64,000 nt of DNA, from assembly GCA_007695015.1 (NCBI GenBank), contig REEN01000057.1:1-64000 (forward strand). Reading direction: 5' to 3'. Under the pieces are notes generated by a model. It was not told where the DNA came from, searched no databases, and was given only the letters and a program-made list of their open reading frames with translations. Each line of letters starts with the position of its first letter. Within the stretch, counting starts at the first letter, position 1. A program made the position numbers and the translations under genes. Shown piece by piece: positions 3,279 through 41,656 of this stretch. The stretch comes from Marinilabiliales bacterium. GTDB lineage: Bacteria > Bacteroidota > Bacteroidia > Bacteroidales > PUMT01.

Positions 3279-3436
3279 TGAGGGTAATGGTATTGTCTTG
3301 TTAAAACCGGTACCGTCAGTGCAAGTTAGCGAAATCATTCCCAACTGACAACAGCCACCGGGTCTGTCGCACTCTGGCATCATGCCGGTTGATCCGGGTA
3401 TAATGCCGGCCCGGACATTCTGCATCAGCCTGCCGG

Positions 3437-3536
3437 CCGGAGTTGGTCACACGGGGCCTGCCAACCGGAGTTGGTCGGCCGGGGCCTGCCGACCGGAGTT
3501 GGTCAGCCGGGGCAGATCGGCCGGGGCAGATCGGCC
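3437..3536. repeat. 28-bp and 14-bp GC-rich tandem repeats between amrS and amrB
   Basis: The 322-base gap between amrS and amrB holds three 28-bp units starting at 3437, 3465 and 3493, each opening with CCGGAGTTGGTC. They are followed by two 14-bp units, GGCCGGGGCAGATC-like, up to about 3536. Frames across this stretch are open only because of the repeat. The translated products are Gly/Pro/Ala-rich without known motifs, so I read it as non-coding minisatellite DNA. Confidence 0.85.
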
Positions 3537-3600
3537 GAAACCCCTGAGTCCGGGCCCGTCAACCAGGACCTGCCGGCCGGGGCCTGCGAGCCGGGGCCCG

Positions 3601-7334: not shown

Positions 7335-7420
7335 CTGTTCAGGTATTTTATGATTTGTTATACTACAAATAAATACAAAATCATTGTCAATATCCTTGAT
7401 TTTTTTCATTTGTGCGCACT

Positions 7421-7582
7421 GTTTTTCAACATAAAGAGATGCCGGGGCCACATGCCACTGGCCATTCTGCCGCCGCTTACATGCCCGGTTTTTCAACATA
7501 AAGAGATGCCGGGGCCACACGCCGCAGGCCTTTCTGCCGCCGGTTCCATGCACTGCTTTTCAACATAAAAGGTAAGATGCGA
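7421..7582. repeat. 67-bp tandem repeat (about 2.4 copies) between tdh and kbl
   Basis: Copy 1 spans 7421-7487 and copy 2 spans 7488-7554; a partial third copy starts at 7555 and decays after about 27 bases. Each copy opens with TTTTTCAACATAAAGAGATG or a near match, followed by GCCGGGGCCAC. The first two copies agree at most positions. The array occupies the divergent promoter region of tdh and kbl. The third copy runs almost into the putative kbl -7 box. Confidence 0.9.
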
Positions 7583-40456: not shown

Positions 40457-41656
40457 ATGCAAAGTGATATCCGGAAAGAGCTGATAAAAGGGATCTTCGC
40501 CATAAGAACGCAGGGTGAGTTTGAGGATATGGCCCTGCGGGTGTTCTCATATCAGTGCGGTAACAACGAGCTGTACCGCACTTACCTGGATATCCTGGGC
40601 ATAGATCCCTCATCGGTTGACCGCATCAGCCGGATCCCCTGCCTGCCTGTTTCATTTTTCAAAACCCATGCAGTTTACACGGGGACTGCTCCCGGCGAGA
40701 AGGTTTTCAGGAGCAGCGGAACAGGAAGGGGAAGCGGAGCGGCGAACCCGGGAAGCGGCAACACCTCCGGGAACAGCAGGACCGGCGACGGAAGCAGAGC
40801 GGCAAACCCGGAAACCGGTTTTCCATCCGGAAGCAGCGGGACAGGCTCAGCGAACCCGGGAAGCGGCAACACCTCCGGGAACAGCAGGACCGGCGACGGA
40901 AGCAGAGTGGCGAGCAGCGGTACCGCTCCTGCTGTCAGGTCGGCCCATTACGTTGCCGACACCGCGCTTTACGAAAAAAGTTACCTGAGATGCTTTGAGA
41001 TCTTTTACGGCGACCCGGCCGGTTACTGCTTCCTCGCACTGCTTCCCTCCTACCTCGAAAGAGGTGATTCATCGCTGGTTTATATGGCCGGGGGACTTAT
41101 CAGGAAGAGCGGCAGGCCCGAAAGCGGCTTTTACCTGGATGACCTTGATTCACTTGCCTCAGTCATCCGGTCCAACGAAAAGAGGGGCATCAAAACATTC
41201 CTTTTGGGGGTAAGCTTCGCCCTGCTCGACCTGTTCGGCCGGTACGGTTTCAGGCTCGGGAACACTATTGTTGCAGAGACAGGAGGGATGAAGGGCAAAA
41301 GGAAGGAGATCACCCGGGAGGAGCTGCATGACCTGATCAGGCGGGGAAGCGGACTTCAGCATATACATTCGGAATACGGCATGACCGAGCTGCTTTCCCA
41401 GGCATGGTCACGATCGGGCGGCATATTCCACACCCCTCCATGGATGAAGGTCATGATAAGAGACGCCTATGATCCATTCTCCTGCCTTGAACAGGGCCGC
41501 AGCGGGGGAGTTAACATCATCGACCTGGCCAACATCGATTCATGTGCTTTCATAGAGACGGCCGACCTTGGCAGGATGCATCCGGGGGGCGGGTTCGAGA
41601 TACTGGGGAGGTTTGACAATGCCGATCTGCGCGGTTGCAACCTGCTTTCCGAATAG
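40457..41656 (+). CDS. LuxE-family acyl-protein synthetase-like protein with repeat insertion
   Basis: 399-residue member of the adenylating LuxE family. In this family LuxE activates fatty acids; the Bacteroidota members have no established substrate. Recognisable parts are PCLPVSFFKTHAV (about 61-73), the Ser/Thr/Gly ATP-loop SSGT, SAHYVADTALYEKS, LLPSYLERGDSSLVYM, ETGGMKGKRKEITREEL and HSEYGMTELLSQAWS, then the C-terminal LGRFDNADLRGCN. The family is about 325-330 residues. The excess sits in the ATP-loop: SSGT occurs at 86-89, 126-129 and 153-156, separated by Gly/Ser/Asn repeats encoded by direct DNA repeats. Whether the enzyme is active is uncertain. It is divergent from the cyclase-HD gene, with 157 bases between starts. 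Confidence 0.8.
   Translation: MQSDIRKELIKGIFAIRTQGEFEDMALRVFSYQCGNNELYRTYLDILGIDPSSVDRISRIPCLPVSFFKTHAVYTGTAPGEKVFRSSGTGRGSGAANPGSGNTSGNSRTGDGSRAANPETGFPSGSSGTGSANPGSGNTSGNSRTGDGSRVASSGTAPAVRSAHYVADTALYEKSYLRCFEIFYGDPAGYCFLALLPSYLERGDSSLVYMAGGLIRKSGRPESGFYLDDLDSLASVIRSNEKRGIKTFLLGVSFALLDLFGRYGFRLGNTIVAETGGMKGKRKEITREELHDLIRRGSGLQHIHSEYGMTELLSQAWSRSGGIFHTPPWMKVMIRDAYDPFSCLEQGRSGGVNIIDLANIDSCAFIETADLGRMHPGGGFEILGRFDNADLRGCNLLSE
40742..40907 (+). repeat. Direct repeats inside the LuxE-family gene
   Basis: A 58-base sequence opening GCGAACCCGGGAAGCGGCAA is present identically at 40742-40799 and 40850-40907, with a diverged copy (from 40802) between. The offset of 108 bases is 36 codons, so loss or gain of a unit would keep the frame. 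The repeats encode SANPGSGNTSGNSRTGDGSR-type peptides. Their CCGG-rich composition resembles the intergenic minisatellites. Confidence 0.95.

Follow-up and report, generated by a model that had tools for sequence, protein, structure and literature searches.

In-frame tandem repeats in the ATP-binding loop of a putative LuxE-family adenylate-forming enzyme

We found that a LuxE-family gene of a Marinilabiliales bacterium, for an enzyme of fatty-acid-activating type in a Bacteroidales genome of soda-lake type, carries an in-frame array of tandem repeats at the tip of the loop predicted to bind the phosphates of ATP. The reading that we favour, at a probability of about 0.7, is that of a tolerated, frame-preserving minisatellite that lies in the catalytic loop and is still changing, the first of its SSGT motifs being most likely the catalytic one. 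The gene (40457-41656, forward strand, 399 aa) belongs to a 64,000-nucleotide stretch of contig REEN01000057.1, hereafter the window, and was recognised from its open reading frame, family profiles and a PDB match. It runs without stop or frameshift between two opposite-strand genes. Its neighbours encode a cyclase/HD protein, a UPF0102 protein and an LD-carboxypeptidase, all on the opposite strand, and no luxC, luxD or luxAB was found beside it.

Family and fold of the encoded protein

The protein scored 26.1 bits against the LuxE family profile (PF04443), just above the cut-off of 24.9; a six-frame search of the genome with this profile gave no match at E<=0.001, so that membership of the family is marginal. 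Its 34.7 bits for the NF052244 equivalog, whose cut-off is 550, indicate that it is not a true luminescence LuxE. The only match among PDB sequences was LuxE (7xc6 chain E, E 9e-11). In the family alignment, S86, S87, T89, S162 and H164 fell in invariant columns, reproducing the LuxE arrangement of a strand, the SSGT motif and then S.H, and the remaining invariant family columns were also retained. Structural comparison revealed an ANL/PaaK-like fold, with PaaK1 in complex with ATP as the match (2y27_A; Z 25.2, rmsd 3.1, 295 residues aligned), and the P-loop of PaaK1 binds the ATP phosphates (PMC8388817). Judged by its sequence and modelled fold, the gene product is a PaaK/LuxE-like adenylate-forming enzyme with putative activity.

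This protein resembles the LuxE long-chain-fatty-acid--protein ligase (PF04443, NF052244, PDB 7xc6 chain E) in profile, PDB match and SSGT loop, but its gene stands alone, falls short of the NF052244 cut-off and carries a 67-residue insert in the P-loop. Similarly, it has the fold and the place of the P-loop in common with the PaaK phenylacetate-CoA ligases and PaaK-like adenylating enzymes (2y27, 4r1m, 6six), although it is shorter, shows only ~14-17% identity to them and contains the insert. The broad family and the phylum are also those of AS87_03730, a non-luminescent LuxE homologue from Riemerella anatipestifer (Bacteroidota), of which a deletion mutant has been studied and the biochemistry is not established (PMC4772473). 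Our literature search for P-loop insertions in the PaaK-like adenylating superfamily found nothing on point.

A tandem array lies between two SSGT motifs

The proteins of same-genus relatives have 330-332 aa and the Bacteroidota homologues mostly 320-345 aa, nearly all with one SSGT-type loop of ~10 residues. In G007 and G011, two insert-free members of the genus, this loop reads FRSSGTGST(S/V)PSVH, while in the window FRSSGT is followed by 67 residues, the last four of which are again SSGT, and then by APAVRSAH. The length excess over the 332-aa relatives (67 codons; about 70 had been anticipated) is located entirely between the first SSGT (residues 86-89, 40712-40723) and the last one (residues 153-156, 40913-40924), the latter forming the end of the insert (residues 90-156; 40724-40924, 201 bp, forward strand like the other features of this gene). 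The insert is hydrophilic and rich in Gly, Ser, Asn and Thr, and a further SSGT occupies residues 126-129 (40832-40843).

Tandem Repeats Finder reported a 60-bp unit present in 3.3 copies (40730-40913). Within the array, a 58-bp block occurs twice without any difference (40742-40799 and 40850-40907, offset 108 bp), and a diverged copy of the ~60-bp unit, which holds the second SSGT, is placed between them (40790-40846). Exact repeats never exceeded 15 bp when the codons of the insert were shuffled 300 times, indicating that the duplication did not arise by chance. The original prediction of a LuxE-family gene with a repeat expansion placed precisely in the SSGT ATP loop, with these three motifs and this repeated block, was borne out. 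Made of tandem units whose length is a multiple of 3 and contained in an open reading frame, the insert is an in-frame intragenic minisatellite. As in previously described bacterial intragenic minisatellites and satellites (PMC6749651), the product is hydrophilic and of low complexity and the sequence is unique to the locus, but the array here lies in a catalytic loop and not in a linker or surface repeat domain. We found no further copies of the array elsewhere in the genome, which ruled out a dispersed element. DNA folding of the array was no better than that of shuffles (z 0.65), giving no sign of a hairpin. An overlapping frame (40617-40988) was rejected as a gene, since it is probably open only through the lack of stops in the repeat.

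The original prediction also held that the SSGT motif had been tripled, and this was true only in part. The chance that an insert of the same composition ends in SSGT was low (P = 0.0015), so that the insert seems to be bordered by duplicates of the motif, and two or more SSGT in such an insert were also rarely expected (P = 0.003). In contrast, the DNA likeness of the middle SSGT to the first was within the codon-shuffle expectation (P = 0.43), and this copy may be a by-product of the Gly/Ser-rich repeat. Amplification of an 18-nt RSSGTG segment as the source of every unit was likewise discarded, as its fit did not exceed that of codon shuffles (P 0.43).

A rearranged insert in a sister species

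Alignment with close relatives showed that the insert was absent from the other members of the genus except for a sister species, G004 (contigs SLOE01, isolate CSSed165cm_433, where CSSed presumably stands for Cock Soda Lake sediment), which carries a different version. At the order level, 217 genomes had a match, and among the ~155 matches listed there was no further insert of this kind. The G004 insert occupies the same place as that of the window and reads RSSGTGSGGSEAVYGGGSTNTGSRNPSGNSGTGAANP and, on another contig, ANPVSGNTYGSSATGSGIRSAHYV, a related but rearranged array whose first motif is SSGT and whose last is SSAT. A stretch of 38 bp aligned to the array of the window with a match of 89% (E 1.5e-7), which suggests that the inserts of the two species probably share a common origin.

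The G004 gene is cut within the array, where the end of one contig and the start of the next share a 10-base sequence, GCGAACCCGG. As the assembly has 170 contigs in 2.5 Mb, simple arithmetic gives any particular 200-bp stretch a ~1.4% expectation of containing a contig break, which makes the repeat the likely cause here. Read through the 10-base overlap, the G004 version would be 24 codons shorter (51 vs 75 codons, counted from the first SSGT up to RSAHYV), a value that depends on a split assembly and may differ from the real length. An assembly artefact, in which the repeat was collapsed or expanded, would agree with this break in the same array, and tandem repeats are a known source of assembly errors (PMC6868369). 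The independent assembly of another species nevertheless has an insert of related units at the same place. Moreover, the 58-bp exact repeat is shorter than an ordinary short read. We regard an artefact as the least probable of the explanations considered here: an assembly error could have made the copy number wrong, but would hardly account for the presence of an insert.

In another genome, G084, a LuxE-family gene (L030) contains a non-repetitive insertion of 16-20 residues in the same P-loop, SSGTTASAKSKLQKLNISSIANSRSIHYV. This insertion is independent of that in the window, which points to a site that tolerates length. Long open frames in G097, G137, G372 and G232 were discarded as P-loop inserts since they read past the gene ends, and 20 extra residues in G313 were positioned elsewhere in the protein. 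SSAT and SSGI variants of the P-loop were observed in otherwise intact homologues, at L197 (G313) and L198 (G097).

The insert is predicted to be disordered and the first SSGT to be the working motif

The AlphaFold model of the window protein (49 sequences, pLDDT 82.9) contained confident strands at residues 82-85 (KVFR, 40700-40711) and 163-166 (40943-40954), while residues 91-153 had pLDDT values under 50. The insert-free protein of G007, modelled as control (pLDDT 90.7), showed the same strand at 82-85 and the counterpart of the second one at 96-99, with exactly 67 fewer residues in between. The insert is therefore predicted to be a disordered segment, from residue 91 to 153, located at the tip of the loop that binds the ATP phosphates in the PaaK-like adenylating fold.

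Either the first or the last SSGT had been proposed as the real loop. The last motif keeps the family-normal spacing to the conserved S.H. The first one keeps its strand register, was modelled more confidently (mean pLDDT of 84 for residues 81-90 and 61 for residues 151-160) and is conserved as SSGT in G004, where the last motif is SSAT. Taken together, these sequence and model data suggest that the first SSGT is most likely the working motif.

The enzyme is constrained while the array probably still changes

Outside the insert, the window gene and that of G004 were 88-91% identical, with a dS of 0.30 and a dN/dS of 0.18. Because the insert is present in both species, this constraint postdates the insertion, and the comparison implies that the rest of the enzyme has been constrained since then. 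The insertion of 67 residues at a catalytic loop might be taken as an early sign of a gene that is losing its function. This is very unlikely given the purifying selection since the split from a sister that itself bears the insert, the retention of the other invariant columns, and the lack of stops and frameshifts.

Synonymous divergence between the window and G004 amounted to 0.245 per site (about 24%), and the chance of finding zero differences over 58 bp was 8e-8 if the sequence was unconstrained and 0.017 if synonymous sites alone were free. Compared with the divergence of the sister, the identical copies are either younger than the species split or were homogenised afterwards. An insert maintained by selection, as a flexible Gly/Ser lid that alters ATP handling, partner binding or behaviour at high salt, would be consistent with a hydrophilic segment retained in two species across a dS of 0.30. 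Between them it is conserved in neither sequence nor arrangement, however, and comparable inserts occur in unrelated genes (see below), which makes selection for the insert unlikely, even if it is the strongest of the alternatives.

Similar arrays in other genes

We surveyed 353 kb of the window genome and found 23 arrays of at least 60 bp (6.5 per 100 kb); the units listed for them look unrelated by eye. Seven were contained in open frames of 250 aa or more, and all 7 had periods of 30, 36, 39 or 60. The rates were 2.2 and 2.0 per 100 kb in G004 and G007, in short-contig samples from which arrays may be lost, and 7.0-7.5 per 100 kb in two more distant genomes, so these figures do not establish a raised rate in the window genome. 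One array adds ~28 residues of 12-residue repeats to the interdomain linker of MetH (named by eye; L111:15976-16069, G000 C34) and is private to the window genome, being absent from G004 and the other genus members.

Other in-frame arrays were located in a beta-lactamase-like serine hydrolase (L103:642-701), a SPOR-like repeat protein (L116:13829-13977) and the tail of a glycoside-hydrolase-57-like protein (L118:748-949), all named by eye. The window itself contains apparently intergenic minisatellites at 2309-2412, 3428-3537 and 7416-7569, with units of 17, 28 and 67 bp, and in G004 ~1.2 kb replaces the ~150 bp that hold the first of them. An array of G007 with a 21-bp unit, which encodes AGTTTRP repeats (L154:6913-7218), exceeds 14 copies and runs off the contig end.

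These arrays bear on the proposal of a contingency locus, in which changes of copy number within the population would tune or switch the enzyme and generate phenotypic variants. A recent exact duplication, together with an array that differs in the sister, is what such a locus would produce. As predicted, however, the steps of 108, 60 and 48 bp are all multiples of 3, so every change of length keeps the frame and no off state is available. Similar in-frame arrays are present in MetH and other unrelated proteins, and a LuxE-family enzyme should reside in the cytosol and play no part at the cell surface. We consequently consider a contingency locus improbable. We give slightly less weight still to a rheostat, that is, an evolving minisatellite in the active site that differs in length from one individual to another and thereby tunes the use of ATP.

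Discussion

The other possibility raised initially, a tolerated insertion, fits relatives that lack the insert, a sister with a different version at the same place and purifying selection on the rest of the gene. We propose that a short tandem duplication occurred at the tip of the P-loop in the common ancestor of the window species and G004, and that it would have grown by slippage or unequal recombination in whole-codon steps. The outcome would be a disordered Gly/Ser/Asn/Thr loop with an SSGT copy at each end. The array would still be changing, as suggested by the identical 58-bp copies despite ~24% synonymous divergence and by the different arrangement in the sister. It may be tolerated because it protrudes as a loop between two strands whose positions are unchanged, and the first SSGT, still attached to its strand, would most likely perform catalysis. 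In this reading the enzyme would be active and the insert neutral. Against it, 67 residues placed after SSGT could impair ATP binding, since the residues at this position of the P-loop are normally important in the superfamily (PMC8388817), and the insert is present in two species only, that of the sister being split over two contigs.

Linkers, tails and surface repeats are where expanded repeats are usually retained, and the one described here is found in the phosphate-binding loop of a putative ATP-using enzyme that is still under purifying selection. This gene offers a naturally occurring case in which to ask what length a catalytic P-loop can accommodate, and whether a catalytic motif, once duplicated, can swap roles with the original one.
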